64,000 nucleotides of DNA, from contig OW388298.1 of NCBI GenBank assembly GCA_936450465.1, positions 8,602,035-8,666,034 on the forward strand, given 5' to 3'. The notes under the pieces were generated by a model. The model had not been told where the DNA came from and searched no databases. It saw only the letters and a list, made by a program, of their open reading frames with translations. How positions within the stretch are numbered: the stretch's first letter is position 1; each line of letters begins with the position of its first letter. Positions 15,854 through 50,890 of the stretch are shown one piece after another. The stretch is from Gibbula magus. Its lineage: Eukaryota; Mollusca; Gastropoda; Trochida; Trochidae. The position numbers and the translations under genes are program-made.

Positions 15854-15955
15854 ATTGGTCGAACAGATCAGATGCGCAGACGGTCCAGTTGTCATGTGGG
15901 TGGAGTCACAGATATGGGTATAAAAAACATAGCAACCCTATTTGTCGCCATTCTG
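15854..15955 (+). promoter_or_regulatory. Core promoter of the SET-domain gene
   Basis: A TATA box (TATAAAAAA, 15919-15927) lies 31 bp before a pyrimidine-rich initiator (GCCATTCT, A at about 15950). An inverted CCAAT box (ATTGG, 15854-15858) lies 61 bp upstream of the TATA box. The 5' UTR would be about 57 nt and unspliced, with the start codon at 16007. A TATA box with a CCAAT box and a short leader resembles replication-dependent histone gene promoters. That matches the histone-type 3' end at 16951. Function is inferred. Confidence 0.6.
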
Positions 15956-16006
15956 ATCTGACTATTTGCGATCATCACGACTTACAACGTCTGAACGTCC
16001 AACACC

Positions 16007-16882
16007 ATGCCTCCTAGTCGGTTCCAGCGCCGTGGTCTAGCAGTGGACTCTTGTCTATCCCGGAAGGACTGCCCCTATCTGACGACCTTCGCTGATCTCT
16101 TCGCTCCGAGCCCTGATGGCCAGGTCATCTCCACCAGGGACCTCCACACGGAGTATCGTTTCCATGTAGCAGCGAAGACGACAGATCAACGGCTGATCGA
16201 GGTCGCTGACAACTTCCGGAGGTTCTCCATCCAGTTTGCCGTGGTTGCTGTGCGTAAGAACTTTGTCAAGTTTCGGGATGGGGTTAAGGGCTATCAGATA
16301 GTTAGGATAGGTCGTAGCAATCGCAGGGAGGTTGGGGGTGTTAGGGACGGGGAAGGGGACGGTTTGGCTCGTCCTCTGGGGTATTCGCTAAGGAACTATG
16401 CTACTCGTACTTCTGTTTTGGAACGGGAAAGGAGGGAGGATCCAAATTCTAGCCCAATCGTAGCGCCTGTCAGTACCGAAATTGGGAAGGGTGTATTTGC
16501 AACACATGACTATCCTGCTGGGGCGGAAGTCTGTGAGTATCTTGGCCAGATAATTAGTGCAGAGGAGGCAGACATTCGGCAGGAGGGGTACGACAGGCTA
16601 GGCTTATCGTATAGGTGCATTGAGTTTGAGGGGGCCCGTGGTTCATCACGTTTAGATGGCCAGTGTAATCATGAGGGGGATCGAATTGATCCTGATACAA
16701 ATTTGGGGGCTACGATGAATCACTCCCATCGAAATCCTAATTGTAAGATGGTAAAGAAATTTCGGGATGGGAGGCAGAGATTTTTTATGTACACGATCAC
16801 TGGGGTGAGCTCGGGTGGAGAGTTCCTTTGGGACTACAACGACGACAGAGCGGATGCCCCCCTCTTCATGAAGAACTCTTGA
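16007..16882 (+). CDS. Intronless SET-domain lysine methyltransferase, KMT5A/SETD8-like
   Basis: A 291-aa protein with a C-terminal SET domain (about residues 150-285). The motifs in order are GKGVFA (160-165, SAM-binding N-flank), EYLG (177-180), NLGATMNHS with NHS at 238-240 (SAM-binding pseudoknot), NPNC (243-246), and EFLWDYND with the catalytic-type Tyr at 277. There are no pre-SET or post-SET cysteine clusters, and the chain ends soon after DY, as in the H4K20 monomethylase family KMT5A. That is family resemblance by eye, so the substrate is not known. The N-terminal 140 residues have no recognised domain, are basic and contain a Gly/Arg/Asp linker (about 102-125). The start is the first ATG after the TATA-driven leader. 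The gene has no intron, codon use is less AT-rich than the surroundings, and a histone stem-loop follows 69 nt after the stop. It looks functional. Confidence 0.9.
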   Translation: MPPSRFQRRGLAVDSCLSRKDCPYLTTFADLFAPSPDGQVISTRDLHTEYRFHVAAKTTDQRLIEVADNFRRFSIQFAVVAVRKNFVKFRDGVKGYQIVRIGRSNRREVGGVRDGEGDGLARPLGYSLRNYATRTSVLERERREDPNSSPIVAPVSTEIGKGVFATHDYPAGAEVCEYLGQIISAEEADIRQEGYDRLGLSYRCIEFEGARGSSRLDGQCNHEGDRIDPDTNLGATMNHSHRNPNCKMVKKFRDGRQRFFMYTITGVSSGGEFLWDYNDDRADAPLFMKNS

Positions 16883-16950
16883 GGGGGAGACCAAGAGACA
16901 GGCCCGAAGCTGCTAGACACCAACACGGCACCAGCTGAACCGACAACAAC

Positions 16951-16986
16951 GGCCCTTTTCAGGGCCAACAACTCGCCAGAAAGAAA
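16951..16986 (+). terminator. Histone-type 3' stem-loop plus purine-rich downstream element
   Basis: GGCCCTTTTCAGGGCC (16951-16966) forms a perfect 6-bp stem with a UUUC loop. It matches the metazoan replication-dependent histone mRNA consensus GGYYCTTHTHARRRCC, with A/C-rich flanks (CAACAAC before, AACAAC after). Eleven to twelve bases later is CAGAAAGAAAA (16977-16987), in the place and style of the histone downstream element that pairs with U7 snRNA. The spacing agrees with known histone genes. SLBP would bind the loop and cleavage would fall at about 16970, yielding a non-polyadenylated mRNA. The nearest AATAAA is some 320 bp further on. Confidence 0.8.
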
Positions 16987-17245
16987 ACTTTTAACAATGC
17001 AAAAATAATTAACCAATCCAAACGAAATCTTTCACAATGCAAAAAGAATCCGTAAATACAAGTGAAAACTTTTACAATGCAAAAACAATTGGCCAATACC
17101 AGTGAAAACTTTTACAATGCAAAAACAATTTGCCAATAGCAAAGAAAACTTTCACAAAGCAAAAACAATCGACCAATACCAGTGAAAACTTTTACAATGC
17201 AAACAACATTGGTCAATAGCAAATAAATATTTCACAATGCCAAAA
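16981..17245 (+). repeat. 40-bp tandem repeat, about 6.5 copies, with CCAAT boxes
   Basis: The unit is GAAAACTTTTACAATGCAAA then AACAATTGGCCAATACCAGT. Copies start at about 16982, 17023, 17063, 17103, 17143 and 17183, and the last is partial. Several units contain CCAAT. The array begins exactly in the histone-type downstream element, so the purine-rich GAAAGAAAAC of that element is itself the first edge of the repeat. Confidence 0.8.
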
Positions 17246-17249
17246 GTTA

Positions 17250-18650
17250 CAACACTGTGAAATAACTCAGAATTAAAACAATGCTAAAATAAAGTTTGAT
17301 CAATGCATAAAAACCCCACAAAACTAAGGGGGTTTAAACTTTTGAAAAGTGTTATTAAAAACGAAAGAAAAATAAACTAACTCAAAGAACATAAAATTCA
17401 ATCGTAACCGAGTCGACAATTTCATTACAAAGTTCCTCAAATTGATTGAAATAGTTTTTGGTCAGGACACGTAACTCAGCTGGTAATAGATGTGTGTAAA
17501 TTTGTAAACAACTGATAATTAATTCTGAATCATCCTGTAATACTAATCCCTTTTCAAATTAAAAGTTCAGCATCCACAGCAAAAGGCTTCAATTAATTGT
17601 TTCTGTTTGAAGAATCAATTAAAATCCACAGAAAATATCTTCCAGTAATCGCAAATCCACATTCATATAGTACGGAAGTTCAAATACAATTCAAGATATT
17701 TAGTGTGAATAAATTCTGTTAATGATAAACTTCATGTTTGATATTTTGATTAATGTCTATTACTTTTTAAAATCTCCTTTCTAGGTAAATATCTTAGTAC
17801 AAATTAGAACCAAGCACAGCGAAAATGATAGCAATTCATAGATAATTATGTTTCCCCTATCAAAATCGGTTGAGTCAAGCAAACATTCGCCACGCGATGG
17901 ACAGACATATAGACTCACAGACGCGCGGACGAAAAGACAATATCGCATATCATTTGTAATTTTTGAAGAGCTAACCACATGAACTTGTTATACAAGTCAA
18001 TCTCATATATTTATTTAGCCACCAAGTTCGTTAAATGTTTAATCATCTTTATTTAGATTAATTTCTGATAGTAGATAACTTTATTTTCAAAGCCAAGTTG
18101 TAATATTTTCCTTTTCGTTTTATCTTGGCTGGATGAGATCCTTAGAGGACAAAAGTTTCGTCTACCTCGAACCAGACATTGAGGAAGCTTGAAACGTGAT
18201 GCACGTGCAGATCGTGCGTTCCCTCTCTAACAACACTCCTGACCCAGATATCTCGTTTGACGGTTAAGTTGAAACATAAAAGACAATTGCGAAAAGAATA
18301 AACTTTGAATTTTAAAATCTAATCTCAAAGTCTAATGTGAGACAATTTTAATTGTTTTTGTGGTACATGGAACCATTGAAAAACATTGTCAATATGACTT
18401 TTATTTCAATAACAGTCGATTTATAATATCCAATTACTATTTTCAAGAAATCAAATTTCAGGAAAAGTGTTAAAAAGTCACAATGTCAGAGCAAGTCGAA
18501 GGAAAGGAGCTTGGTGTTAATTAGGTGTGGAGAGTTTAGAATTATATTTTAATTTATCATTTAATTAATTAAGTTTTTAAATAAGGACTGTAGTTGGGGA
18601 TGGGGGTAGTTCACATTTTGAAACGTGGGAGAGGGGGATCAAATGTTGAA
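17250..18650. other. AT-rich intergenic with an old copy of a local duplication
   Basis: 17860-18260 is a diverged copy of the unit found at 20040-20390 and 21100-21330. It has ATGGACAGACATATAGACTC and later GATGCACGTGCAGATCGTGC (about 18197). No supported gene. Confidence 0.5.
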
Positions 18651-21530: not shown

Positions 21531-21725
21531 CGTTTTTCTTACTGAACACTCAAAGTTTTAAATATGATACCATGATAGAATAGTCAACCACCTTACTGCG
21601 TAATCTCTCAGGATCAGATGTGTAAATTTTAACCCCCTAGATGCCAGGTACTGATTTGGCATGATGTCAGTTAGATAGATATATGTTATAAGAGATGAAC
21701 ATTATTTCTGTCATGTCAAGCTGAC

Positions 21726-24700
21726 CAGTGTTTTAACATGTCTTCAATTCCTTAGAATATCACACCCTCAGAGTCAGGCACCAACCACCAGCACTGACCA
21801 CTAAATATCACAACAACTTATCAACTAACGTTCTACTAAGCAGTGTTGTAACACGTCTTGCCTTCCTTAGAATATCACACCCTCAGAGTCAGGCACCAAC
21901 CACCAGCACTGACCACTAATTATCACAACAACTTATCAACTAACGTTCAATTAAGCAGTGTTTTATCACGTCTTGCCTTCCTTAGAATATCACACCCTCA
22001 GAGTCAGGCACCAACCACCAGCACTGACCACTAAATATCACAACAACTTATCAACTAATGTTCTGTTGACCAGTGTTATAACACGTCTTCCATTCCTAAG
22101 AATAGCACATCCTCAGAGTCAGGCACCAACCACCAGCACTGACCACTAAATATCACAACAACTTATCAACCAACGTTCTGCTGACCAGTGTTATAACACG
22201 TCTTCCATTCCTTAGAATAACACACCCTCAGAGTCAGGCACCAACCACTAGCACTGACCACTAACTATCACAACAACTTATCAACCAACGTTCTGCTGAC
22301 CAGTGTTATAACACGTCTTCCATTCCTTAGAATAGCACACCCTCAGAGTCAGGCACCAACCACCAACACTGACCACTAGCTATCACAACAAATTATCAAC
22401 CAACGTTCTGCTGACCAGTGTTTTAACACGTCTTCCATTCCTTAGAATAGCACACCCCGAGAGTCAGGCACCAACCAACAGCACTGATCACTAAATATCA
22501 CAACAACTTATCAACTAACGTTCTGCTGACCAGTGTTATAACACGTCTTCCATTCCTTAGAATAGCACACCCTCAGAGTCAGGCACCAACCACCAGCACT
22601 GTCCACTAAATATCATAACAACTTATCAACTAACGTTCTGCTGACAAGTGTTATAACACGTCTTCCATTCCTTAGAATAGCACACCCTCAGAATCAGGCT
22701 CCAACCACCAGCATTGACAACTAAATATCACAATAACTTATCAACCAACGTTCTGCTGACCAGTGTTATAACACGTCTTCCATTCCTTAGAATAGCACAC
22801 CCCGAGAGTCAGGCACCAACCAACAGCACTGACCACTAAATATCACAACAACTTATCAACTAACGTTCTGCTGACCAGTGTTATAACACGTCTTCCATTC
22901 CTTAGAATAGCACACCCCGAGAGTCAGGCACCAACCACCAGCACTGTCCACTAAATATCACAACAACTTATCAACTAACGTTCTGCTGACCAGTGTTATA
23001 ACACGTCTTCCGTTCCTTAGAATAGCACACCCCGAGAGTCAGGCACCAACCACCAGCACTGTCCACTAAATATCACAACAACTTATCAACTAACGTTCTG
23101 CTGACCAGTGTTATAACACGTCTTCCATTCCTTAGAATAGCACACCCCGAGAGTCAGGCACCAACCACCAGCACTGTCCACTAAATATCACAACAACTTA
23201 TCAACTAACGTTCTGCTGACCAGTGTTATAACACGTCTTCCGTTCCTTAGAATAGCACACCCCGAGAGTCAGGCACCAACCACCAGCACTGTCCACTAAA
23301 TATCACAACAACTTATCAACTAACGTTCTGCTGACCAGTGTTATAACACGTCTTCCATTCCTTAGAATAGCACACCCCGAGAGTCAGGCACCAACCAACA
23401 GCACTGACCACTTAATATCACAACAACTTATCAACTAACGTTCTGCTGACCAGTGTTATAACACGTCTTCCATTCCTTAGAATAACACACCCTCAGAGTC
23501 AGGCACCAACCACTAGCACTGACCACTAACTATCACAACAACTTATCAACCAACGTTCTGCTGACCAGTGTTATAACACGTCTTCCATTCCTTAGAATAG
23601 CACACCCTCAGAGTCAGGCACCAACCACCAACACTGACCACTAGCTATCACAACAAATTATCAACCAACGTTCTGCTGACCAGTGTTTTAACACGTCTTC
23701 CATTCCTTAGAATAGCACACCCCGAGAGTCAGGCACCAACCAACAGCACTGATCACTAAATATCACAACAACTTATCAACTAACGTTCTGCTGACCAGTG
23801 TTATAACACGTCTTCCATTCCTTAGAATAGCACACCCTCAGAGTCAGGCACCAACCACCAGCACTGTCCACTAAATATCATAACAACTTATCAACTAACG
23901 TTCTGCTGACAAGTGTTATAACACGTCTTCCATTCCTTAGAATAGCACACCCTCAGAATCAGGCTCCAACCACCAGCATTGACAACTAAATATCACAATA
24001 ACTTATCAACCAACGTTCTGCTGACCAGTGTTATAACACGTCTTCCATTCCTTAGAATAGCACACCCCGAGAGTCAGGCACCAACCAACAGCACTGACCA
24101 CTAAATATCACAACAACTTATCAACTAACGTTCTGCTGACCAGTGTTATAACACGTCTTCCATTCCTTAGAATAGCACACCCCGAGAGTCAGGCACCAAC
24201 CACCAGCACTGTCCACTAAATATCACAACAACTTATCAACTAACGTTCTGCTGACCAGTGTTATAACACGTCTTCCGTTCCTTAGAATAGCACACCCCGA
24301 GAGTCAGGCACCAACCACCAGCACTGTCCACTAAATATCACAACAACTTATCAACTAACGTTCTGCTGACCAGTGTTATAACACGTCTTCCATTCCTTAG
24401 AATAGCACACCCCGAGAGTCAGGCACCAACCACCAGCACTGTCCACGAAATATCACAACAACTTATCAACTAACGTTCTGCTGACCAGTGTTAAAACACG
24501 TCTTCCATTCCTTAGAATAGTTCACCCCGAGAGTCAGATACCAACCACCAGCACTGACCACTAAATATCACAACAACTTATCAACTAACGTTCAACTGAC
24601 CTGTGTTATAACACGTCTTCCATTCCTTAGAATAGCATACCCCGAGAGTCAGGCACCAACAACCAGCACTGACCACTAAATATCACAACAACTTATCAAC

Positions 24701-26420
24701 TAACGTTCTGCTGACCATTGTTATAACACGTCTTCCATTCCTTAGAATAGCACGACCCGAGAGTCAGGCACCAACCACCAGCACTAACCACTAAATATCA
24801 CAACAACTTACCAACCAATGTTCTGCTGACCAGTGTTATAACACGTCTTCCATTCCTTAGAATAACACACCCTCAGAGTCAGGCACCAACCACCAGCACT
24901 GACCACTAAATATCATAACAACTTATCAACTAACGTTCTGCTGACCAGTGTTATAACATGTATTACATTCCTTAGAATAGCTCACCCTCAGAGTCAGGCA
25001 CCAACCACTAGCACTGACCACTAACTATCACAACAACTTATCAACTAACGTTCTGCTGACCAGTGTTATAACACGTCTTCCGTTCCTTAGAATAGCACAC
25101 ACTCAGAGTCAGGCACCAACCACCAACACTGTCCACTAAATATCACAAAAGTTATCAACCAACGTTCTGCTGACCAGTGTTATAACACGTCTTCCATTCC
25201 TTAGAATAGCACACCCTCAGAGTCAGGCACCAACCACCAGCACTGTCCACTAAATATCACAACAACTTATCAACCAACGTTCTGCTGACCAGTGTTATAA
25301 CACGTCTTCCATTCCTTAGAATAGCACACCCCGAGAGTCAGGCACCAACCACCAGCACTGACCACTAAATATCACAACAACTTACCAACCAATGTTCTGC
25401 TGACCAGTGTTATAACACGTCTTCCATTCCTTAGAACAGCACACCCTCAGAGTCAGGCACCAACCACTAGCACTGACCACTAAATATCACAACAACTTAT
25501 CAACCAACGTTCTGCTGACCAGTGTTTTAACACGTCTTCCATTCCTTAGAATAACACACCCTCAGAGTCAGGCACCAACCACTAGCACTGACCACTAACT
25601 ATCACAACAACTTATCAACCAACGTTCTGCTGACCAGTGTTATAACACGTCTTCCATTCCTTAGAATAACCTACCCTCAGAGTCAGGCACCAACCACAAG
25701 CACTGACCACTAGCTATCACAACAACTTATCAACCAACGTTCTGCTGACCAGTGTTTTAACACGTCTTCCATTCCCTAGAATAGCACACCCTCAGAGTCA
25801 GGCACCAACCACCAGCACTGACCACTAAATATCACAACAACTTATCAACTAATGTTCTGCTGACCAGTGTTATAACACGTCTTCCATTCCTTAAAATTGC
25901 ACATCCTCAGAGTCAGGCACCAACCACCAGCACTGACCACTAAATATCACAACAACTTATCAACTAACGTTCTGCTGTTCTGTGTTATAACATATCGTAA
26001 CTTCCTTAGACTAGAACACCCTCACAGTCAGGCACCAGCAAGCAGCACTTTACACTGAATATAACAACCACTTATCAACTAACGTTCTTTTGTTCTGTGT
26101 TATAATATATCTTACCTTCCTTGGAGTAGACTACCCTCAGAGTCAGGCACCAACCACCAGCACTGAGCACTGAGTATCACAACAACTTATCAACTAACGT
26201 TCTGCTGGTCTGTGTTATAACATATCGTAACTTCCTTAGAGTAGAACACCCTCAGAGTTAGGTACCAACAATCAACTTTGGGCACTGAATATAACAACAA
26301 CTTATCAACTCACGTTGACCAGTGTTATAACATATCTTTCCTTCCTAAGAGGAGAACACCCTCAGAGTCAGACACCAACCACCAGAACTGAGCACCATAT
26401 GTCCCAACAACTTATCAACT
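21726..26420. repeat. 115-bp satellite array, about 41 monomers, with 11-mer higher-order repeat
   Basis: The monomer starts CAGTGTTATAACACGTCTTC, passes through CCTTAGAATAGCACACC and GAGTCAGGCACCAACCACCA and ends CAACTTATCAACTAACGTTC. The period is exactly 115 bp (for example 22071, 22186). Variant markers such as ACTAGCACTG..CTAACTATC and CAACAAATTATC recur exactly 1265 bp apart (11 x 115; 22201 and 23466, 22391 and 23656), so a block of about 1.1 kb was duplicated. Monomers at the right edge (25975-26420) are more diverged (GTAACTTCCTTAGA). There is no long open frame. Confidence 0.95.
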
Positions 26421-26994: not shown

Positions 26995-28176
26995 ACCCCC
27001 CCCCCCCCCCCCATCCCTCCCTGACCCAGTGTTAGCCCCTACTATCCAGTCATCCTGGTATGACCCTTCTGACCCTCCCCCCCCCCATCCCTCCCTGACC
27101 CAGTGTTAGTCCCTACTATCAAGTCATCCTGGTATGACCCTTCTGACCCCCCCCCCCCCCCATCCCTCCCTGACCCATTGTTAGCCCCTACTATCCAGTC
27201 ATCCTGGTATGACCCTTCTGACCCTCCCCCCCCCCCCCATCCCTCCCTGACCCAGTGTTAGTCCCTACTATCCAGTCATCCTGGTATGACCCTTCTGACC
27301 CTAACTCCCCCCCCTCCCCCCCCCCCCCCCCCCCCCCCCTACCTCCCTGACCCAGTGTTAGTCCCTACTATCCAGTCATCCTGGTATGACCCTTCTGACC
27401 CTCCCTCCCCCCCGATCCCCCCCCCCCCCCCATCCCTCCCTTACCCAGTGTTAGTCCCTACTATCAAGTCATCCTGGTATGACCCTTCTGACCCCCCCCC
27501 CCCCCCCCCCCCATCCCTCCCTGAGCCAGTGTTAGTCCCTACTATCCAGTCATCCTGGTATGACCCTTCTGACCCTCCCCCCCCCCCCCCCCCATCCCTC
27601 CCTTACCCAGTGTTAGTCCCTACTATCCAGTCATCCTGGTATGACCCTTCTGACCCTCCCTCCCCCCCGATCCCCCCCCCCATACCTCCCTGACCCAGTG
27701 TTAGTCCCTACTATCCAGTCATCCTGGTATGACCCTTCTGACCCTCCCTCCCCCCCCCCCCCCCAATCCCTCCCTGACCCAGTGTTAGTCCCTACTATCC
27801 AGTCATCCTGGTATGACCCTTCTAACCCTCCCTCCCCCCCGATCCCCCCCCCATACCTCCCTGACCCAGTGTTAGTCCCTACTATCCAGTCATCCTGGTA
27901 TGACCCTTCTGACCCTCCCTCCCCCCCCCCCCCCCCCCCCAATCCCTCCCTGACCCAGTGTTAGTCCCTACTATCCAGTCATCCTGGTATGACCCTTCTG
28001 ACCCTCCCTCCCCCCCGATCCCCCCCCCCCCCCATACCTCCCTGACCCAGTGTTAGTCCCTACTATCCAGTCATCCTGGTATGACCCTTCTGACCCTCCC
28101 TCCCCCCCCCCCCATCCCTCCCTGACCCAGTGTTAGTCCCTACTATCCAGTCATCCTGGTATGACCCTTCTGACCC

Positions 28177-28207
<31 letters not shown>

Positions 28208-29548
28208 ATCCCTCCCTGACCCAGTGTTAGTCCCTACTATCCAGTCATCCTGGTATGACCCTTCTGACCCTCCCTCCCCCCCCCCCCCCCCAATCCCTCC
28301 CTGACCCAGTGTTAGTCCCTACTATCCAGTCATCCTGGTATGACCCTTCTGACCCTCCCTCCCCCCCCCCCCCCCCCAATCCCTCCCTGACCCAGTGTTA
28401 GCCCCTACTATCCAGTCATCCTGGTATGACCCTTCTGACCCTCCCCCCCCCATCCCTCCCTGACCCAGTGTTAGTCCCTACTATCAAGTCATCCTGGTAT
28501 GACCCTTCTGACCCCCCCCCCCCCCCATCCCTCCCTGACCCATTGTTAGCCCCTACTATCCAGTCATCCTGGAATGACCCTTCTGACCCTCCCCCCCCCC
28601 CCCCATCCCTCCCTGACCCAGTGTTAGTCCCTACTATCCAGTCATCCTGGTATGACCCTTCTGACCCTCCCTCCCCCCCCCTCCCCCCCCCATCCCTCCC
28701 TTACCCAGTGTTAGTCCCTACTATCCAGTCATCCTGGTATGACCCTTCTGACCCTCCCTCCCCCCCCTCCCCCCCCCCCCCCCCCCCCCATACCTCCCTG
28801 ACCCAGTGTTAGTCCCTACTATCCAGTCATCCTGGTATGACCCTTCTGACCCTCCCTCCCCCCCGATCCCCCCCCCCCCCCCCCATCCCTCCCTTACCCA
28901 GTGTTAGTCCCTACTATCAAGTCATCCTGGTATGACCCTTCTGACCCTCCCCCCCCCCCCCCCCCCATCCCTCACTGACCCAGTGTTAGTCCCTACTATC
29001 CAGTCATCCTGGTATGACCCTTCTGACCCTCCCCCCCCCCCCCCCCCCCCCCATCCCTCCCTTACCCAGTGTTAGTCCCTACTATCCAGTCATCCTGGTA
29101 TGACCCTTCTGACCCTCCCTCCCCCCCGATCCCCCCCCCCCCCCCCATCCCTCCCTTACCCAGTGTTAGTCCCTACTATCAAGTCATCCTGGTATGACCC
29201 TTCTGACCCTCCCCCCCCCCACCCCCCATCCCTCACTGACCCAGTGTTAGTCCCTACTATCAAGTCATCCTGGTATGACCCTTCTGACCCTCCCCCCCCC
29301 CCCCCCCCCCCCATCCCTCCCTGAGCCAGTGTTAGTCCCTACTATCCAGTCATCCTGGTATGACCCTTCTGACCCTCCCCCCCCCCCCATCCCTCCCTTA
29401 CCCAGTGTTAGTCCCTACTATCCAGTCATCCTGGTATGACCCTTCTGACCCTCCCTCCCCCCCCCGATCCCCCCCCCCCTATACCTCCCTGACCCAGTGT
29501 TAGTCCCTACTATCCAGTCATCCTGGTATGACCCTTCTGACCCTCCCT

Positions 29549-29579
<31 letters not shown>

Positions 29580-31323
29580 CCCTCCCTGACCCAGTGTTAG
29601 TCCCTACTATCCAGTCATCCTGGTATGACCCTTCTAACCCTCCCTCCCCCCCGACCCCCCCCCCCCATACCTCCCTGACCCAGTGTTAGTCCCTACTATC
29701 CAGTCATCCTGGTATGACCCTTCTGACCCTCCCTCCCCCCCCCCCCCCCCCAATCCCTCCCTGACCCAGTGTTAGTCCCTACTATCCAGTCATCCTGGTA
29801 TGACCCTTCTGACCCTCCCTCCCCCCCGATCCCCCCCCCCCCCCCCCCCCCCATACCTCCCTGACCCAGTGTTAGTCCCTACTATCCAGTCATCCTGGTA
29901 TGACCCTTCTGACCCTCCCTCCCCCCCCCCCCCCATCCCTCCCTGACCCAGTGTTAGTCCCTACTATCCAGTCATCCTGGTATGACCCTTCTGACCCTCC
30001 CCCCCCCCCCCCCATCCCTCCCTGACCCAGTGTTAGTCCCTACTATCCAGTCATCCTGGTATGACCCTTCTGACCCTCCCTCCCCCCCCCCCCCCCCCCC
30101 CCCAATCCCTCCCTGACCCAGTGTTAGTCCCTACTATCCAGTCATCCTGGTATGACCCTTCTGACCCTCCCTCCCCCCCCCCCCCCATCCCTCCCTGACC
30201 CAGTGTTAGTCCCTACTATCCAGTCATCCTGGTATGACCCTTCTGACCCTCCCTCCCCCCCCCCCCCCCAATCCCTCCCTGACCCAGTGTTAGTCCCTAC
30301 TATCCAGTCATCCTGGTATGACCCTTCTGACCCTCCCTCCCCCCCCCCCCCCCCCCCCCCCATCCCTCCCTGACCCAGTGTTAGTCCCTACTATCCAGTC
30401 ATCCTGGTATGACCCTTCTGACCCTCCCTCCCCCCCCCCCATCCCTCCCTGACCCAGTGTTAGTCCCTACTATCCAGTCATCCTGGTATGACCCTTCTGA
30501 CCCTCCCTCCCCCCCCCCCCCCCCCCATCCCTCCCTGACCCAGTGTTAGTCCCTACTATCCAGTCATCCTGGTATGACCCTTCTGACCCTCCCTCCCCCC
30601 CATCCCTCCCTGACCCAGTGTTAGTCCCTACTATCCAGTCATCCTGGTATGACCCTTCTGACCCCCCCCCCCCCCCCCCCCCCCCAATCCCTCCCTGACC
30701 CAGTGTTAGTCCCTACTATCCAGTCATCCTGGTATGACCCTTCTGACCCTCCCCCCCCCCCCCCCATCCCTCCCTGACCCAGTGTTAGTCCCTACTATCC
30801 AGTCATCCTGGTATGACCCTTCTGACCCTCCCCCCCCCCCCCCATCCCTCCCTGACCCAGTGTTAGTCCCTACTATCCAGTCATCCTGGTATGACCCTTC
30901 TGACCCTCCCTCCCCCCCCCCCCCCCCCCAATCCTTCCCTGACCCAGTGTTAGTCCCTACTATCCAGTCATCCTGGTATGACCCTTCTGACCCTCCCTCC
31001 CCCCCCCCCCCCCCCATCCCTCCCTGACCCAGTGTTAGTCCCTACTATCCAGTCATCCTGGTATGACCCTTCTGACCCTCCCCCCCCCCCCCCCCATCCC
31101 TCCCTGACCCAGTGTTAGTCCCTACTATCCAGTCATCCTGGTATGACCCTTCTGACCCTCCCCCCCCCCATCCCTCCCCCCCATCCCTCCCTTACCCAGT
31201 GTTAGTCCCTACTATCCAGTCATCCTGGTATGACCCTTCTGACCCTCCCTCCCCCCCCCCCCCCATCCCTCCCTGACCCAGTGTTAGTCCCTACTATCCA
31301 GTCATCCTGGTATGACCCTTCTG

Positions 31324-31354
<31 letters not shown>

Positions 31355-31494
31355 CCCTGACCCAGTGTTAGTCCCTACTATCCAGTCATCCTGGTATGAC
31401 CCTTCTGACCCTCCCTCCCCCCCCCCATCCCTCCCTGACCCAGTGTTAGTCCCTACTATCCAGTCATCCTGGTATGACCCTTCTGACCCTCCCT

Positions 31495-31526
<32 letters not shown>

Positions 31527-31997
31527 CCCTCCCTGACCCAGTGTTAGTGCCTACTATCCAGTCATCCTGGTATGACCCTTCTGACCCTCCCTCCCCCAAT
31601 CCCTCCCTGACCCAGTGTTAGTCCCTACTATCCAGTCATCCTGGTATGACCCTTCTGACCCTCCCCCCCCCCCCCCCCCATCCCTCCCTGACCCAGTGTT
31701 AGTCCCTACTATCCAGTCATCCTGGTATGACCCTTCTGACCCTCCCTCCCCCCCCCCCCCCCCCCCAATCCCTCCCTGACCCAGTGTTAGTCCCTACTAT
31801 CCAGTCATCCTGGTATGACCCTTCTGACCCTCCCTCCCCCCCCCCCCCCCCATCCCTCCCTGACCCAGTGTTAGTCCCTACTATCCAGTCATCCTGGTAT
31901 GACCCTTCTGACCCTCCCTCCCCCCCTCCCCCCCCATCCCTCCCTGACCCAGTGTTAGTCCCTACTATCCAGTCATCCTGGTATGACCCTTCTGACC

Positions 31998-32029
<32 letters not shown>

Positions 32030-32175
32030 CCCTGACCCAGTGTTAGTCCCTACTATCCAGTCATCCTGGTATGACCCTTCTGACCCTCCCTCCCCCCCCC
32101 CCCCCCCCCCCCCCCCAAATCCCTCCCTGACCCAGTGTTAGTCCCTACTATCCAGTCATCCTGGTATGACCCTTC
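26995..32175. repeat. Poly-C minisatellite, about 61 units
   Basis: A nearly constant core of about 66 bp (CATCCCTCCCTGACCCAGTG, TTAGTCCCTACTATCCAGTC, ATCCTGGTATGACCC, TTCTGACC) alternates with C runs of about 5 to more than 30. The mean unit is about 85 bp. The core is almost invariant while C-run length changes at nearly every unit. Open frames in both directions (Pro-rich on +, Gly-rich on -) arise because the core has no stops in some frames. They break whenever a C run shifts phase, so they are not genes. The opposite strand is strongly G-quadruplex-prone. Confidence 0.95.
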
Positions 32176-32439
32176 TTGAACTTGACTGACTGTTTTAACT
32201 TTATTAGCCTATATAGTGACTTTTACTATGCATCTATAATAAAATACCAAGCCTTGAATATAAACTACCTGTATGCCGTTCCCGGGAATATTATTTTGTT
32301 TATACTAGCAACATTTTTAAATATCAAGCAGTCTGTGATTTTGTATCAAATACTTTACAATAACTTTTCATACCGTCCTTCAAGTCTGGAACAAAGATAT
32401 TTGTATTAGGCCTACTGTTTTTTATGACCCTCCCCAAAC

Positions 32440-38600: not shown

Positions 38601-41600
38601 GGAAACCCCATAACTTATTTATAGATGGACTGATTCTCAATTCTATGTGAGTAATTGTCACATATGTAACTAGAATTTATAAAGTACTGTTCTTTAATTA
38701 ATTGACATAAATTTAGAATTTTTGCAACGATGAAAAAGAAGAATTAAATCGATTCGAGTAAGGAAAAACTAGTTTCTAATCTATGTTGCGACACGCTAAT
38801 TTTGATGGAGACAGATAAAAAGCTGTTCATACTGAACCCTTTTGATGACGAGTTTTTTATGCAACATGGGAGACATCGAGACTTTGTCAAACCTACATTC
38901 AGGGCAACATGTCTGCTAATTCTTTTCGACTTGTTATCTCACTACGATGATAGATTTGTTTTAATGCTATGAATTGAGTTGATTTTAATCTGCAGTATTT
39001 CCCTCGCTATGCCAAGTTAGTGGGTCGCTGCACCTGAAATGCATAGTTGGTCCCAATTTCAGGAAATACTGCAAGGCTTAAATTAGCCAGTAATGGAGAC
39101 TGGCAAGAGTTATGCCTTGCATTTGAAAGTTGAGACTGTTCAGACCCAGCTATTAGTCAAAGCAGACGATTATTAAGGATTTACAGTACATCCAGTATCC
39201 AATCCCAATAAGACAATTTAAGCAACCCTGACAAATGGTTTAGCTAATGTGGTCATATCTGCACTATTTAATTTCATTATCAAGTTTTAAGAATAAAATG
39301 TATTTTGAAAAGAGATTTGAGAATACATGACAATTTTGACTTTTTCAGAAAAACTGAGAGGAAAACATTCCTTGCAAAGTTTTTGAAGGATGTTGACAGA
39401 GCATATGACATTGCCTACCCTATTGACGACATCCATCCACAGAATGATTCAGCAACCAACCTCTCTCAAGATGATTCAGCAACCAATCTCTCTCAAGATG
39501 ATTCAGCAACCAATCTCTCTCAAGATGATTCAGCAACCAATCTCTCTCAAGATGATTCAGCAACCAACCTCTCTCAAGATGATTCAGCAACCAATCTCTC
39601 TCAACATGATTCAGCAAACAATCTCTCTCAAGATGATTCAGCAGCCAACGTCTCTCAAGATGATTCAGCAACCAATCTCTCTCAAGATGATTCAGCAACC
39701 AACCTCTCTCAAGATGATTCAGCAACCAATCTCTCTCAAGATGATTCAGCAACCAATCTCTCTCAATATGATTCAGCAACCAACCTCACCCAAGATGATT
39801 AAGCAACCAACCTCACCCAAGATGATTAAGCAACCAATCTCTCTCAAGATGATTCAGCAACCAACCCTCTCTCAAGATGATTCAGCAACCAACCTCTCTC
39901 AAGATGATTCAGCAACCAATCTCTCTCAAGATGATTCAGCAACCAATCTCTCTCAATATGATTCAGCAACCAATCTCTCTCATGTTGATTCAGCAACCAA
40001 TCTCTCTCAAGATGAATTGGAGACCCTTCTCTGAGATGCACAGGAGGCTGTTCTCTCTCAAGATGCACAGGAGGCTGTTCTCTCTTAAGATGCACAGGAG
40101 GCTGTTCTCTTTCAAGATGCACAGGAGGATGTTCCCTCTAAAGATGCAAAGGAGGCTGTTCTCTGTCAAGATGCACAGGAGGATGTTCTCCCTCAAGATG
40201 CAAAGGAAGATGTTCCCTCTCAAGATGCACAGGAGGATATTCTCTCTCAAGATGCCCAGGTCACTGTTCACTCTCAAGATGCACAGGAGGATGTTCTCTC
40301 TCAAGATGCACAGGAGGATGTTCTTTCTCAAGATGCACAGGACACTGTTCTCTCTCAAGATGCAGAGGAGAATGTTCTCTCACAAGATGGAAAGGAGGAT
40401 GTTCTCTCTCAAGATGCAAAGGAGGATGTTCCCTCTCAAGATGCACAGGAGGCTGTTCTCTCTCAATATGCACAGGACACTGTTCTCTCTCAAGATGCAC
40501 AGGACACTGTTCTCTCTCAAGATGCACAGGAGGATGTTCTCTCTCAAGATGCAAAGGAGGATGTTCTCTCTCAAGATGCACAGGAGGATGTTCACTCTCA
40601 AGATGCACAGGAGGATGTTCTCTCTCAAGATGCACAGGAGGATGTTCTTTCTCAAGATGCACAGGACACTGTTCTCTCTCAAGATGCAAAGGAGGCTGTT
40701 CCCTCTCAAGATGCACAGGAGGTTGTTCCCTCTCAAGATGCAAAGGAGGATGTTCTCTCTCAAGATGCACAGGAGGATGTTCCCTCTCAAGATGCACAGG
40801 ACACTGTTCTCTCTTAAGATGCAAAGGAGGCTGTTTTCTCTCAAGATGCACAGGACACTGTTCTCTTTCAAGATGCACAAGACACTGTTCTCTCTCAAGA
40901 TGCACAGGAGGCTGTTCTCTCTCAAGATGCACAGGAGCCTGTTCTCTCTCAAGATGCACAGGACACTGTTCTCTTTCAAGATGCACAGGACACTGTTCTC
41001 TCTCAAGATGCACAGGAGGCTGTTCTCTCTCAAGGTGCACAGGAGGATGTTCTTTCTCAAGATGCACAGGAGGATGTTCTCTCACAAGATGCACAGGAGG
41101 CTGTTCTCTCTCAAGATGTACAGGAGGCTGTTCTCTCTCAAGATGAACAGGAGGATGTTCTCTCTCAAGATGCACAGGAGGATGTTCCCTCTCAAGATGC
41201 AAAGGAGGCTTTCTCTCTCAAGATGCTCAGGAGGATGTTCCCTCTCAAGATGCAAAGGAGGATGTTCTCTCTCAATATGAACAGGAGGATGTTCCCTCTC
41301 AAGATGCACAGGAGGATGTTCCCTCTCAAGATGCACAGGACACTGTTCTCTCTCATGATGCACAGGACACTGTTCTCTCTCAAGATGCACAGGAGGATGT
41401 TCTCTCTCAAGATGCAAAGGAGGATGTTCTCTCTCAAGATGCACAGGAGGATGTTCACTCTCAAGATGCACAGGAGGATGTTCTCTCTCAAGATGCACAG
41501 GAGGATGTTCTTTCTCAAGATGCAAAGGAGGATGTTCTCTCTCAAGATGCACAAGAGGATGTTCACTCTCAAGATGCACAGGACACTGTTCTCTCTTAAG

Positions 41601-44600
41601 ATGCAAAGGAGGCTGTTTTCTCTCAAGATGCACAGGACACTGTTCTCTTTCAAGATGCACAAGACACTGTTCTCTCTCAAGATGCACAGGAGGCTGTTCT
41701 CTCTCAAGATGCACAGGAGGATGTTCTCTCTAAAGATGCACAGGAGGATGTTCTTTCTCAAGATGCAAAGGAGGATGTTCTCTCTCAAGATGAACAGGAG
41801 GATGTTCCCTCTCAAGATGCACAGGACACTGTTCTCTCTTAAGATGCAAAGGAGGCTGTTTTCTCTCAAGATGCACAGGACACTGTTCTCTTTCAAGATG
41901 CACAAGACACTGTTCACTCTCAAGATGCACAGGAGGCTGTTCTCTCTCAAGATGCACAGGGCACTGTTCTCTCTCAAGATGCACAGGAGGATGTTCTCTC
42001 TCAAGATGCAAAGGAGGCTGTTCTCTCTCAAGATGCAAAGGAGGCTGTTCTCTCTCAAGATGCACATGACACTGTTCTCTTTCAAGATGCACAGGAGGCT
42101 GTTCTCTCTCAAGATGCACAGGAGGATGTTCTCTCACAAGATGCACTTGAGGATGTTCTCTTACAAGATGCACTTGAGGCTGTTCTCTCTCAAGATGCAC
42201 AGGAGGCTGTTCTCTCTCAAGATGCACAGGAGGATGTTCTCTCTCAAGATGCACAGGAGGATGTTCCCTCTCAAGATGCAAAGGAGGCTGTTCTCTCTCA
42301 ATATGAACAGGAGGATGTTCCCTCTCAAGATGCACAGGAGGCTGTTCTCTCACAAGATGCACAGGAGGCTGTTCTCTCTCAAGATGCACAGGAGGCTGTT
42401 CTCTCTCAAGATGCACAGGAGGCTGTTCTCTCTCAAGATGCACAGGATGATGTTCCCTCTCAAGATGCACAGGACACTGTTCTCTCTCAAGATGCACAGG
42501 AGGATGTTCTCTCTCAAGATGCAAAGGAGGCTGTTCTCTCTCAAGATGCACAGGACACTGTTCTCTTTCAAGATGCACAGGACACTGTTCTCTCTCAAGA
42601 TGCACAGGAGGCTGTTCTCTCTCAAGATGCACAGGAGGATGTTCTTTCTCAAGATGCACAGGAGGTTGTTCTCTCACAAGATGCACAGGGGGCTGTTCTC
42701 TCTCAAGATGCACAGGAGGCTGTTCTCTCTCAAGATGCACAGGACACTGTTCTCTTTCAAGATGCACAGGAGGATGTTCCCTCTCAAGATGCAAAGGAGG
42801 CTGTTCTCTCTCAAGATGCACAGGAGGATGTTCCCTCTCAAGATGCAAAGGAGGATGTTCTCTCTCAATATGAACAGGAGGATGTTCCCTCTCAAGATGC
42901 ACAGGACACTGTTCTCTCTCAAGATGCACATGAGGCTGTTCTCTCTCAAGATGCACAGGAGGATGTTCCCTGTCAAGATGCACAGGACACTTTTCTCTCT
43001 CAAGATGCACAGGAGGATGTTCTCTCTCAAGATGCAAAGGAGGCTGTTCTCTCTCAAGATGCACAGGACACTGTTCTCTCTCAAGATGCACAGGACACTG
43101 TTCTCTCTCAAGATGCAAAGGAGGCTGTTCTCTCACAAGATGCACAGGAGGCTGTTCTCTCTCAAGATGCACAGGAGGCTGTTCTCTCTCAAGATGCACA
43201 GGAGGCTGTTCTCTCTCAAGATGCACAGGATGATGTTCCCTCTCAAGATGCACAGGACACTGTTCTCTCTCAAGATGCACAGGAGGATGTTCTCTCTCAA
43301 GATGCAAAGGAGGCTGTTCTCTCTCAAGATGCACAGGACACTGTTCTCTTTCAAGATGCACAGGACACTGTTCTCTCTCAAGATGCACAGGAGGCTGTTC
43401 TCTCTCAAGATGCACAGGAGGATGTTCTTTCTCAAGATGCACAGGAGGTTGTTCTCTCACAAGATGCACAGGGGGCTGTTCTCTCTCAAGATGCACAGGA
43501 GGCTGTTCTCTCTCAAGATGCACAGGACACTGTTCTCTCTCAAGATGCACAGGAGGATGTTCCCTCTCAAGATGCAAAGGAGGCTGTTCTCTCTCAAGAT
43601 GCACAGGAGGATGTTCCCTCTCAAGATGCAAAGGAGGATGTTCTCTCTCAATATGAACAGGAGGATGTTCCCTCTCAAGATGCACAGGACTCTGTTCTCT
43701 CTCAAGATGCACATGAGGCTGTTCTCTCTCAAGATGCACAGGAGGATGTTCCCTGTAAAGATGCACAGGACACTTTTCTCTCTCAAGATGCACAGGAGGA
43801 TGTTCTCTCTCAAGATGCAAAGGAGGCTGTTCTCTCTCAAGATGCACAGGACACTGTTCTCTCTCAAGATGCACAGGACACTGATCTCTCTCAAGATGCA
43901 AAGGAGGCTGTTCTCTCTCAAGATGCACAGGAGGATGTTCTCTCTCAAGATGCAAAGGAGGATGTTCTCTCTCAAGATGCAAAGGAGGATGTTCTCTCAC
44001 AAGATGCACAGGAGGCTGTTCTCTCTCAAGATGCACAGGAGGCTGTTCTCTCTCAAGATGCACAGGAGGCTGTTCTCTCTCAAGATGCACAGGATGATGT
44101 TCCCTCTCAAGATGCACAGGACACTGTTCTCTCTCAAGATGCACAGGAGGATGTTCTCTCTCAAGATGCAAAGGAGGCTGTTCTCTCTCAAGATGCACAG
44201 GACACTGTTCTCTTTCAAGATGCACAGGACACTGTTCTCTCTCAAGATGCACAGGAGGCTGTTCTCTCTCAAGATGCACAGGAGGATGTTCTTTCTCAAG
44301 ATGCACAGGAGGTTGTTCTCTCACAAGATGCACAGGGGGCTGTTCTCTCTCAAGATGCACAGGAGGCTGTTCTCTCTCAAGATGCACAGGACACTGTTCT
44401 CTCTCAAGATGCACAGGAGGATGTTCCCTCTCAAGATGCAAAGGAGGCTGTTCTCTCTCAAGATGCACAGGAGGATGTTCCCTCTCAAGATGCAAAGGAG
44501 GATGTTCTCTCTCAATATGAACAGGAGGATGTTCCCTCTCAAGATGCACAGGACTCTGTTCTCTCTCAAGATGCACATGAGGCTGTTCTCTCTCAAGATG

Positions 44601-46176
44601 CACAGGAGGATGTTCCCTGTAAAGATGCACAGGACACTTTTCTCTCTCAAGATGCACAGGAGGATGTTCTCTCTCAAGATGCAAAGGAGGCTGTTCTCTC
44701 TCAAGATGCACAGGACACTGTTCTCTCTCAAGATGCACAGGACACTGATCTCTCTCAAGATGCAAAGGAGGCTGTTCTCTCTCAAGATGCACAGGAGGAT
44801 GTTCTCTCTCAAGATGCAAAGGAGGATGTTCTCTCTCAAGATGCAAAGGAGGATGTTCCCTCTCAAGATGCACAGGAGGATGTTCCCTCTCAAGATGCAC
44901 AGGACACTGTTCTCTCTCAAGATGCACAGGAGGATGTTCTCTCTCAAGATGCACAGGAGGATGTTCTTTCTCAAGATGCACAGGACACTGTTCTCTTTCA
45001 AGATGCAGAGGAGAATGTTCTCTCACAAGATGGAAAGGAGGATGTTCTCTCTCAAGATGCAAAGGAGGATGTTCTCTCTCAAGATGCACAGGACACTTTT
45101 CTCTTTCAAGATGCACAGGACACTGTTCTCTCTCAAGATGCACAGGAGGCTGTTCTCTCTCAAGATGCACAGGACACTGTTCTCTCTCAAGATGCACATG
45201 AGGATGTTCTTTCTCAAGATGCACAGGAGGTTGTTCTCTCACAAGATGCACAGGACACTGTTCTCTCTCAAGATGCACAGGAGGATGTTCTCTCTCGAGA
45301 TGCAAAGGAGGCTGTTCTCTCTCAAGATGCACAGGACACTGTTCTCTTTCAAGATGCACAGGACACTGTTCTCTCTCAAGATGCACAGGAGGCTGTTCTC
45401 TCTCAAGATGCACAGGACACTGTTCTCTCTCAAGATGCACAGGAGGATGTTCCCTCTCCAGATGCAAAGGAGGCTGTTCTCTCTCAAGATGCATAGGAGG
45501 ATGTTACCCTCAAGATGCAAAGGAGGCTGTTCTCTCTCAAGATGCACAGGAGGATGTTCCCTCTCAAGATGCAAAGGAGGATGTTCTCTCTCAAGATGCA
45601 CAGGAGGATGTTCCCTCTCAAGATGCACAGGACACTGTTCTCTCTCAAGATGCACATGAGGCTGTTCTCTCTCAAGATGCACAGGAGGATGTTCCCTCTC
45701 AAGATGCACAGGACACTTTTCTCTCTCAAGATGCACAGGAGGATGTTCTCTCTCAAGATGCAAAGGAGGCTGTTCTCTCTCAAGATGCACATGACACTGT
45801 TCTCTCTCAAGATGCACAGGACACTGTTCTCTCTCAAGATGCAAAGGAGGCTGTTCTCTCTCAAGATGCACAGGAGGATGTTCTCTCTCAAGATGCAAAG
45901 GAGGATGTTCTCTCTCAAGATGCAAAGGAGGATGTTCCCTCTCAAGATGCACAGGAGGATGTTCTCTCTCAAGATGCACAGGAGGATGTTCTCTCTCAAG
46001 ATGCACCGGCGACTGTTCCCTCTCAAGATGCACAGGACATTGTTCTCTCTCAAGATGCACAGGAGACCGTTCCCTCTCAAGATGAATTGGAAACCATTCC
46101 CTCTCAAGATGCACAGGAGACCGTTCCCTCTCAAGATGCATCGGCATCTACGCCATATTTTGCCAATGAGGACTAG
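35631..46176 (+). CDS. Split gene ending in a giant exon of about 248 nine-residue repeats
   Basis: Proposed exons are 35631-35687, 35933-36003, 36294-36315, 36634-36661, 36782-36824, 37374-37400 and 39349-46176. Each has AG/GT borders, all phases match (0-0, 0-2, 2-0, 0-1, 1-2, 2-2, 2) and there are no stops up to the array. The unique part (about 110 residues) is Lys/Arg/Leu-rich: INTRIKSSLQ, DIKQFLRWMTKLEALPLLRK, IRVTLHFQSPGTD, FKDTYRLIKKTERKTF, DVDRAYDIAYPID. Its DIK..L..L..LP..LRK..P..V spacing faintly recalls the TFIIS N-terminal/LEDGF IBD fold, unverified. Then follow about 21 DDSATNLSQ and 227 DAQEDVLSQ-type repeats, acidic and presumably disordered, a tail SASTPYFANED, TAG at 46174 and AATAAA at 46201. 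The first exon is not identified. Disruptions are stops at 39800, 39827, 40032, 40086, 40815, 41597, 41840 and 45494, and frameshifts near 39866, 41204 and 45505. Confidence 0.55.
37401..39348. other. Proposed last intron of the repeat gene, with a MITE
   Basis: A 1.9-kb AT-rich stretch bounded by GTATGA and TTTTGACTTTTTCAG. It holds the MITE at 37993-38268 and a half-copy of the foldback family at about 39096-39135. No other supported exon. Confidence 0.45.
37993..38268. mobile_element. MITE, 276 bp, imperfect terminal inverted repeats
   Basis: TTAGGCTGTGTATTAAAAAC plus ATGTTTCTCGGGCA at the left pairs with TGCCCGAGAAACATACTTTT plus TATGCAGCCTAA at the right. The arms are about 36-41 bp with a few mismatches, and the outer 8 bp are perfect. 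The interior has no coding frame. The flanks (TA / CA) do not show a clear target duplication. Confidence 0.7.
39447..46140 (+). repeat. 27-bp coding minisatellite, about 248 copies in two subfamilies
   Basis: Subfamily 1 (39447 to about 40010) is GATGATTCAGCAACCAATCT plus CTCTCAA. Subfamily 2 (about 40035 to 46080) is GATGCACAGGAGGATGTTCT plus CTCTCAA. Unit length is kept at 27 bp almost everywhere, as expected if a frame is preserved. GATGAATTGGA(G/A)ACC marks both borders of subfamily 2 (40012 and 46081). Nested duplications are visible: matching blocks start at about 42350, 43133 and 43997, separated by 783 bp (29 units) and 864 bp (32 units). Because the unit is 27 bp and stop-poor, several frames on both strands are open. 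Only the D..SQ frame joins unique sequence at both ends. Confidence 0.95.
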
Positions 46177-48783: not shown

Positions 48784-48920
48784 GATATACCCATACTTTT
48801 CCTCGTGTACCAAATGATACCCTACAGTTTCCCCGTTGGAGCCTTGCTCGGCTCCGCCTCGTAAGGGCCCCATGGGAAAAAGTGTATGGTATAATTTGAT
48901 ACACTCGAAAAAGAATATCT
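48784..48920. repeat. Long imperfect hairpin, about 50-bp arms
   Basis: The left arm (48784-48835: ATACCCATACTTTTCCTCGT..AAATGATACCCTACAGTTTCCCC) is complementary to the right arm (48871-48920: GGGAAAAAGTGTATGGTATA..GATACACTCGAAAAAGAATAT). The loop is about 35 bp and GC-rich, containing GGAGCCTTGCTCGGCTCC, itself a small hairpin. It directly adjoins the first monomer of the 49-bp satellite. Foldback element or MITE. Confidence 0.65.
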
Positions 48921-50890
48921 CCTCTTATAACTATGGTGCTTCACATAACAGGAGGCCCATCCAATGTCTACTCTTATAGCTATGCTGCATCACATACCAT
49001 GAGGCCCATCCCATATCTCCTCTAATAGCTATGCTGCATCACATAACAGGAGGCCCATCCCATACCTCCTCTTATAGCTATGCTGCATAACATAACAGGA
49101 GGCCCATCCAATGTCTCCTCTTATAGCTATGCTGCATCACATAACATGAGGCCCATCCCATATCTCCTCTTATAGCTATGCTGCTTCACATAACATGAGG
49201 CCCATCCCATATCTACTCTTATAGCTATGCTGCATCATAAAACAGGAGGCCCATCCCATATCTCCTCTTATAGCTATGACGTTTCACATAACATGAGGCC
49301 CATCCCATATCTCCTCTTATAGCTATGCTGCTTCACATAACATGAGGCCCATCCCATGTCTCCTCTTATAGCTATGCTGCATCACATAACAGGAGGCCCA
49401 TCCCATATCTCCTCTTATAGCTATGCTGCTTCACATAACATGAGGCCCATCCCATATCTCCTCTTATAGCTATGCTGCATCATAAAACAGGAGGCCCATC
49501 ACATATCTCCTCTAATAGCTATGCTGCATAATATAGCATGAGGCCCATCCCATGTCTCCTCTTATAGCTATGCTGCATCACATAACAGGAGGCCCATCCC
49601 ATATCTCCTCTTATAGCTATGCTGCATCATAAAACAGGAGGCCCATCACATATCTCCTCTAATAGCTATGCTGCATAATATAACATGAGGCCCATCCCAT
49701 ATCTCCTCTTATAGCTATGCTGCATCATATAACAGGAGGCCCATCCCATACCTCCTCTTATAGCTATGATGTTTCACATAACATGAGGCCCATCCCATAT
49801 CTCCTCTTATAGCTATGCTGCTTCACATAACATGAGACCCATCCCACATCTCCTCTTATAGCTATGCTGCATCACATAACATGAGGCCAATCCCATATCT
49901 CCTCTTATAGCTATGCTGCTTCACATAACATGAGGCCCATCCCATATCTCCTCTTATAGCTATGCTGCATCATATAACAGGAGGCCCATCCCATACCTCC
50001 TCTTATAGCTATGATGTTTCACATAACATGAGGCCCATCCCATATCTCCTCTTATAGCTATGCTGCATCACATAACAGTAGGCGCATCCAATGTGTCCTC
50101 TTATAGCTATGCTGCATCACATAACATGAGGCCAATCCCATATCTGGTCTTATAGCTATGCTGCTTCACATTACAGTAGGCGCATCCAATGTCTCCTCTT
50201 ATAGCTATACTGCATCACATAACATGAGGCCCATCCCATATCTCCTCTAATAGCTATGCTGCATCATATAACTGGAGGCCCATCCCATATCTCCTCTAAT
50301 AGCTATGCTGCTTCACATAACAGGAGGCACATCCCATAGTTCCTCTTATAGCTATGCTGCATCACATAACAGGAGGCCCATCCCATATCTCCTCTAATAG
50401 CTATGCTGCATCAAATAACAGGAGGCCCATCCCATATCTCCTCTTATAGCTATGCTGCATCACATAACAGGAGGCCCATCCCATAGTTCCTCTTATAGCT
50501 ATGCTGCATCACATAACAGGAGGCCCATCCCATATCTCCTCTAATAGCTATGCTGCATCAAATAACAGGAGGCCCATCCCATATCTCCTCTTATAGCTAT
50601 GCTGCATCACATAACAGGAGGCCCATCCCATATCTCGTCTTATAGCTATACTGCATCACATAACAGGAGGCCCATCCCATATCTCCTCTAATAGCTATGC
50701 TGCTTCACATAACAGGAGGCCCATCCCATAGTTCCTCTTATAGCTATGCTGCATCACATAACAGGAGGCCCATCCCATATCTCCTCTAATAGCTATGCTG
50801 CATCATAAAACAGGAGGCCCATCCCATATCTCCTCTAATAGCTATGCTGCATCAAATAACAGGAGGCCCATCCCATATCTCCTCTTGTAG
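48921..50890. repeat. 49-bp satellite, about 40 monomers, LINE-derived
   Basis: The monomer is CTCCTCTTATAGCTATGCTG, CATCACATAACAGGAGGCCC, ATCCCATAT, period 49 bp (for example 49026 and 49075). Variation is mainly GCATC/GCTTC, CAGGAGG/CATGAGG and CTTAT/CTAAT. The 35-bp stretch TATGCTGCATCACATAACAGGAG..CCCATCCC.TA also occurs once at 48036-48070 inside the minus-strand LINE fragment, where it encodes GWGSCYVMQH. The satellite therefore appears to derive from LINE coding sequence. Confidence 0.9.

Follow-up and report, generated by a model that had tools for sequence, protein, structure and literature searches.

In animals, an RNA hairpin normally ties histone mRNAs to the period of DNA replication. 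Excerpts of PMC9526256 describe stem-loop-ended mRNAs as differing "from all other cellular mRNAs" and present vertebrate H2AX as one gene that yields both stem-loop and polyadenylated mRNAs. On the side of the protein factors, an excerpt of PMC2781718 states that, as of 2009, the stem-loop binding protein (SLBP) had never been implicated in the direct regulation of non-histone genes. We have analyzed a 64,000-nucleotide stretch of Gibbula magus DNA (hereafter the window; G000:C10:8602035-8666034, within a 1.47-Gb assembly) in which an uninterrupted open reading frame (ORF) for a SET-domain protein is followed by a histone-type stem-loop and a histone downstream element (HDE). These histone-style 3' signals are real. 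Our searches of the open-licence PubMed Central literature showed no non-histone gene that ends in this way, although one may still have been published.

We consider, with a probability of about 0.7, that the window gene is one of a multicopy set of intronless genes for a winged-helix-like and SET protein, whose mRNA is cut past the stem-loop by the histone machinery, mainly in S phase. Histone-type 3' processing is the best supported part on sequence grounds, and limitation to S phase is probable. The features of the gene are as follows.

15854-15858, + strand: ATTGG, an inverted CCAAT box, with inconsistent placement among the six SET promoters compared
15872-15885, + strand: promoter block ATGCGCAGACGGTC, present with minor variation in all six SET promoters compared; putative function
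15919-15925, + strand: TATAAAA box, 88 nt upstream of the start codon; of the six SET promoters compared, all but that of L025 have a TATA-like box
16007-16882, + strand: uninterrupted ORF for a winged-helix-like and SET protein of 291 aa (ORF list, profile search, paralogue alignment)
16061-16321, + strand: predicted winged-helix domain, residues 19-105
16484-16840, + strand: SET domain, residues 160-278 (PF00856, E=1.4e-12)
16951-16966, + strand: histone-type stem-loop GGCCCTTTTCAGGGCC (Rfam Histone3 match, identical to host H1)
16977-17000, + strand: first HDE-like block CAGAAAGAAAACTTTTAACAATGC, with the offset found in H1 genes
17022-17306, + strand: seven additional HDE-like blocks with a spacing of mostly 40 nt, in a tandem repeat at 16983-17245; putative function
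17222, 17288 and 17371 (17222-17376), + strand: AATAAA polyadenylation-type signals from a motif search, possible alternative 3' ends

The closest systems for comparison are the replication-dependent H1 genes of the host, which share with the SET gene the 16-nt stem-loop, the sequence and spacing of the HDE and an uninterrupted ORF. The window stem-loop (GGCCCT-TTTC-AGGGCC) is the H1 16-mer letter for letter, and one H1-like gene on C4 has a TTTA loop rather than TTTC. The 6-bp stem, the GG..CC base and the 4-nt pyrimidine-rich loop of the histone type are all present, and a purine-rich HDE lies shortly past the stem with an offset and a score in the H1 range. The sequence-only reading of this locus had described the same stem-loop and HDE, and its description holds: 68 nt separate the stop codon from the stem, and CAGAAAGAAAA begins 10 nt rather than 11-12 nt past the stem. 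In contrast, the eight H1-type genes measured have 28-47 nt before the stem, they lack the extra HDE-like blocks of the SET genes, and the product of the SET gene is a SET protein. In that it encodes no histone, the gene stands outside the replication-dependent histone genes.

With the Rfam Histone3 model (RF00032), the window stem-loop scored 32.4 bits, below the gathering score of 34, and a gathering-mode scan of the window did not list Histone3. The E-value of this match is 5e-8 for a 171-nt piece and 1.9e-5 for the 64 kb searched with 4227 families; rescaled to a single family and the full 1.47 Gb, it is about 1e-4. Exact copies of the 16-mer number 290 genome-wide (58 forward, 232 reverse), with 0 occurrences of the reversed control and 0.68 expected in uniform sequence. 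A chance origin of the hairpin is rejected on the E-value and on the 290 versus 0 counts. A Histone3 score below threshold had been named beforehand as a refutation of this reading. The score is formally below the threshold, but more weight falls on the E-value and on the fact that the host H1 genes have the identical end. The gene is thus outside RF00032 by score, yet its ending resembles that of a member and, judging from the sequence, probably functions like one. A joint covariance model of H1, SET and element ends gave the window site 78.2 bits, a score inflated because the site belongs to the model itself; no other place in the window exceeded 19.7 bits.

In the genome-wide RF00032 search, 75 of 247,406 loose candidates were scored, 74 of them above 34 bits. 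The loci that we read comprise tandem H1 genes (C1, C16), an H1 gene on C16 (L005), two H1-like genes on C4 (L010) and two virus-like loci (L006 and L009). Joint alignment of the SET, H1 and element ends shows a common stem-loop and an HDE of approximately AAAGAAA(A/G)CTTT..ACAATGC. With a matrix trained solely on seven H1 HDEs, the first HDE of all 15 SET copies examined scored 17.8-21.1 at an offset of 13-15, and the corresponding scores at 11 H1-type sites, many of them near-identical and some used for the training, were 19.5-23.4 at an offset of 14-16.

The SET gene has been retained in many copies. The window protein as a genome query gave 91 matches, among which 17 are full-length copies without an internal stop and the remainder are broken copies and fragments. 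On C10, two full-length copies of 89% identity lie 0.4-0.6 Mb from the window copy, and seven of 67-69% identity lie at 69-71.5 Mb; C14 carries three at 70-71% and four at 58-60%. Three of the copies at C10 69-71.5 Mb have 8.2-9.3 kb in common at 96.6-98.2% identity, and therefore these copies spread as segmental duplications. The ratio of nonsynonymous to synonymous divergence (dN/dS) was 0.15-0.37 in 13 of the 14 pairs computed, the 14th being saturated, and the window gene differs from the other two clades that have the stem-loop by a synonymous divergence (dS) of 0.75-0.87. Accordingly, the SET proteins have been maintained, and the coding regions are under purifying selection. C14 also contains a tandem array of short SET-gene fragments (approximately residues 131-243; G000:C14:35318440-35334136), and a 460-aa ORF with no assigned family (L050:2399-3781, - strand) is divergently oriented upstream of one of the SET copies on C14.

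The 3' end has been kept along with the protein. We searched 26 of 30 fetched SET loci, the four omitted overlapping others. The stem-loop was found at 55.7 bits or more (joint model) in 19 of the 26, among them 13 of the 17 uninterrupted full-length genes. In L045 a degraded trace of 27.4 bits lies next to a decayed SET fragment, and six loci, including L031-L034, gave none at E up to 1. The absence of the stem-loop from orthologues had been proposed as a refutation; among the paralogues within this genome the stem-loop is kept, and among the intact copies only the divergent L031-L034 lack it. Six copies among L016-L030 have the perfect 16-mer (L016, L023, L024, L025, L028, L029). Stem pair 2 shows a compensatory change from G-C to A-U in L020 and L021, with a G-U intermediate in L022 and the broken copies L036 and L038, and a U-G stem pair is found in L026, L030 and L035. 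Pairing in the stem-loop register is kept in 94.9% of cells, versus at most 60.3% when the register is slid. The 79-nt stem-loop and HDE block of L016 and L023 is 83.5% identical at a dS of 0.75, and no AATAAA lies between stop and stem in any of the 15 SET copies examined.

Considering these signals, the SET pre-mRNA would be cut a few nucleotides past the stem-loop by the host histone machinery, with SLBP on the stem-loop and the U7 small nuclear ribonucleoprotein (snRNP) on the HDE. The product would be a non-polyadenylated mRNA of about 1 kb, expressed mainly in S phase, and the protein may methylate a chromatin substrate in step with replication.

As to the protein, the claim of a SET-domain gene without an intron is supported by the sequence of the gene, in which the 291-aa uninterrupted ORF aligns with P0001 over residues 4-203 and, from end to end, with the paralogues. 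The sequence-only reading had also called the enzyme KMT5A-like, which turned out not to be specific. The SET core is common to SETD2 (2.4e-8), NSD2 (2.9e-8), KMT5A (6.1e-8) and EZH2 (2.3e-7) at about equal profile E-values, and a single-sequence search ranked EZH2 first; a specific KMT5A identity is accordingly not supported. The window protein carries NHS..NPNC and WDY in the alignment (by eye), which we take to be SET methyltransferase motifs. It has no clear assignment to any one of the four, and a winged-helix-like domain precedes its SET domain. In the protein database it has one relative, P0001 (48% identity over 69%), and one weak SET match, P0003; an NCBIfam search gave a sub-threshold match only.

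The promoter was compared among six SET genes. A TATA-like box stood in five of them. The CCAAT part of the signal set described earlier is weak, because the placement of CCAAT or ATTGG varies among the six; the window gene has a second such motif, CCAAT at 15818. GCGCAGA, within the promoter block at -111 to -134, is present in 6 of 6. By eye, no motif common to SET and H1 promoters was seen, and the idea of a promoter shared with H1 genes was dropped.

Beyond the usual HDE, the SET genes show extra HDE-like blocks, a new feature relative to the H1-type sites. Counted within 380 nt past the stem, there are seven blocks in the window gene and in L022, six in L020 and L021, four each in L017-L019 and in L027, three in L024, L026 and L030, and two in L023, L025, L028 and L029. 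On the one hand, these blocks may provide further chances for U7 docking and would probably reduce read-through to the downstream AATAAA sites. On the other hand, the array may be the functionless minisatellite growth of a unit that happens to include an HDE, an explanation to which we give somewhat less than even odds. In its favor, the window array is a 40-nt tandem repeat, and in the four copies with two extra blocks the count was reached by 9-17 of 200 dinucleotide shuffles. Against it, extra blocks occur in all 15 SET copies examined (2-7 each) and at none of 14 other stem-loop sites (11 H1-type, two in L009, one in L006). Outside the window gene the units have diverged while ACAATGC and the A-then-T part often recur, this recurrence being partly by construction because the array alignment was anchored on AATGC. 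The counts of 8 of the 15 copies exceed all 200 shuffles, three more being reached by 1-3. Since tandem duplication is not part of the shuffle model, any function of these blocks can be proposed only tentatively.

The SET genes could also have dual 3' ends as in vertebrate H2AX: transcripts would end at the stem-loop in S phase and be polyadenylated at other times, so that expression would be only partly replication-coupled. H2AX provides the precedent (PMC9526256, in the part cited above), as its stem-loop is followed by polyadenylation signals in the same way as that of the window gene, where AATAAA occurs at 17222, 17288 and 17371; L017-L023, L025, L028 and L029 have the signal at various offsets. 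However, H2AX is a histone and the SET gene is not, AATAAA is common in AT-rich DNA, and it is not kept in all SET copies: within 500 nt past the stem, L024, L026, L027 and L030 show an ATTAAA but no AATAAA. We consider this arrangement possible but rather unlikely.

The histone-type 3' end had been called almost exclusive to histone genes, and in this genome that claim fails. From 100 sites listed among the 290 16-mer sites, 28 scattered places were fetched as short pieces, which contain 30 stem-loops. Two pieces are H1-like (L058, L059), and these alone matched, both as H1, when typed generic core histones and host H1 were compared with the 28 pieces by tblastn. By DNA, 24 of the 28 match one dispersed repeat family (17 of L051-L070 and 7 of L073-L080), some over short stretches. 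The pieces of this family (L051-L057, L060-L067, L069, L070 and L073-L080, with L078 assigned by stem-loop context) have both stem-loop and HDE, and some copies are 99% identical on different contigs. In L068 (C11:26054120-26054940), stem-loop and HDE lie past a 116-residue open frame that is neither histone nor dispersed repeat. Two such ends face outward in L009, L073 and L074; outward-facing pairs 1.1-1.2 kb apart had been taken for core histone pairs, which was wrong. L009 (C14:16705000-16712000), related to these repeats, has an adenovirus-protease-like ORF (PF00770, 20.5 bits versus a cut-off of 21.3). The 75th Histone3 locus, L011 (C15:51446000-51453000; 29.9 bits), is non-histone, and a nearby ORF shares sequence with one of the L009 ORFs, which precedes a stem-loop in that locus. 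A broken endogenous parvovirus-like locus (L006/L014; G000:C12:18244000-18253000) contains two NS1 ORFs (PF01057, E=4.8e-24 and 4.5e-22) and, just past broken ORFs, an HDE and a stem-loop of 41.1 bits, above the Rfam cut-off; the broken ORFs before the L014 stem-loop are capsid-like by eye alone, and family searches of the pieces gave nothing. Because the virus-like repeats and the parvovirus locus carry it, the histone 3' end is not restricted to histones in this genome.

Accordingly, the SET family may belong, or may once have belonged, to a virus-like or mobile element, with the histone end inherited from there and not evolved for co-regulation of a histone writer with its substrate. The dispersed repeats with the same stem-loop and HDE and the multicopy state of the SET family point this way, as does the predicted fold of the N-terminal domain, for which the phage P4 origin-binding domain, the RFX winged helix and the primase-polymerase (PrimPol) of African swine fever virus (ASFV) are the nearest candidates. 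A viral-contig search gave no relatives of the SET protein and none of two L006 pieces. Considering the fold, the copy number and the shared 3' end together, an element-linked history has some room, and we regard it as unlikely.

Several observations weigh against processing of the SET mRNAs by the histone machinery. The most divergent intact copies, L031-L034, have no stem-loop, and stem mismatches occur as C-A in L017-L019, as A-C and U-G in L027, and as A-G and G-U in the broken L037. The covariation is weak, as 17 of 500 shuffles reach its score and 213 of 500 reach one pair changed on both sides, and the remainder of the short SET 3' untranslated region is partly conserved too. RF00032 matched 11 of 17 other SET loci (E up to 5) at 18.7-31.5 bits, all below the cut-off, and AATAAA signals lie downstream of the window gene's own stem-loop. 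A genome search with the U7 snRNA model RF00066 gave no match, nor did the control give one. The U7 pattern AAGYTTTCTT..TTTGTCTAG gave 2 matches versus 2 in the reversed control, without a convincing 3' hairpin, and GCATTG..TTTGTCTAG gave 89 matches versus 21 reversed, with the AAAG/TTTCTTT block in none of those listed (by eye). The mismatches, the absence from L031-L034 and the sub-threshold scores could be read as a relic, captured once, now decaying and followed by polyadenylation, but this is improbable, as stem-loop and HDE are kept over a dS of 0.75-0.87 with a compensatory pair, the perfect 16-mer stands in six copies of L016-L030, and HDE scores are near those of H1.

The remainder of the window is largely occupied by tandem arrays (21720-26420, 26996-32176, 39444-46140 and 50978-64000), whose types are a 115-bp unit in 41 copies, C-rich units of 84-172 bp, a 27-bp unit (21 and 226 copies, several frames open) and a 189-bp unit in 69 copies. 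An Rfam match to the Plasmodium RNA RUF6-5 at 48795-48944 (37.5 bits, E 8.9e-4, cut-off 70) is probably due to chance.

In a broader and very doubtful extension, the histone end would be a general S-phase tag in this genome. Virus-like elements would have their messages made while replication proteins are plentiful, and the SET family, with its U7-site array, would supply at the same time a chromatin-modifying factor acting on new DNA or on the elements; the array may also titrate U7 snRNP. Concerning the reading that we prefer, in which the SET genes use histone-type 3' processing, its meaning, if it is true, is that a conserved non-histone family as well as virus-like elements carry these signals, and that the S-phase mRNA pathway would be open to sharing or capture.
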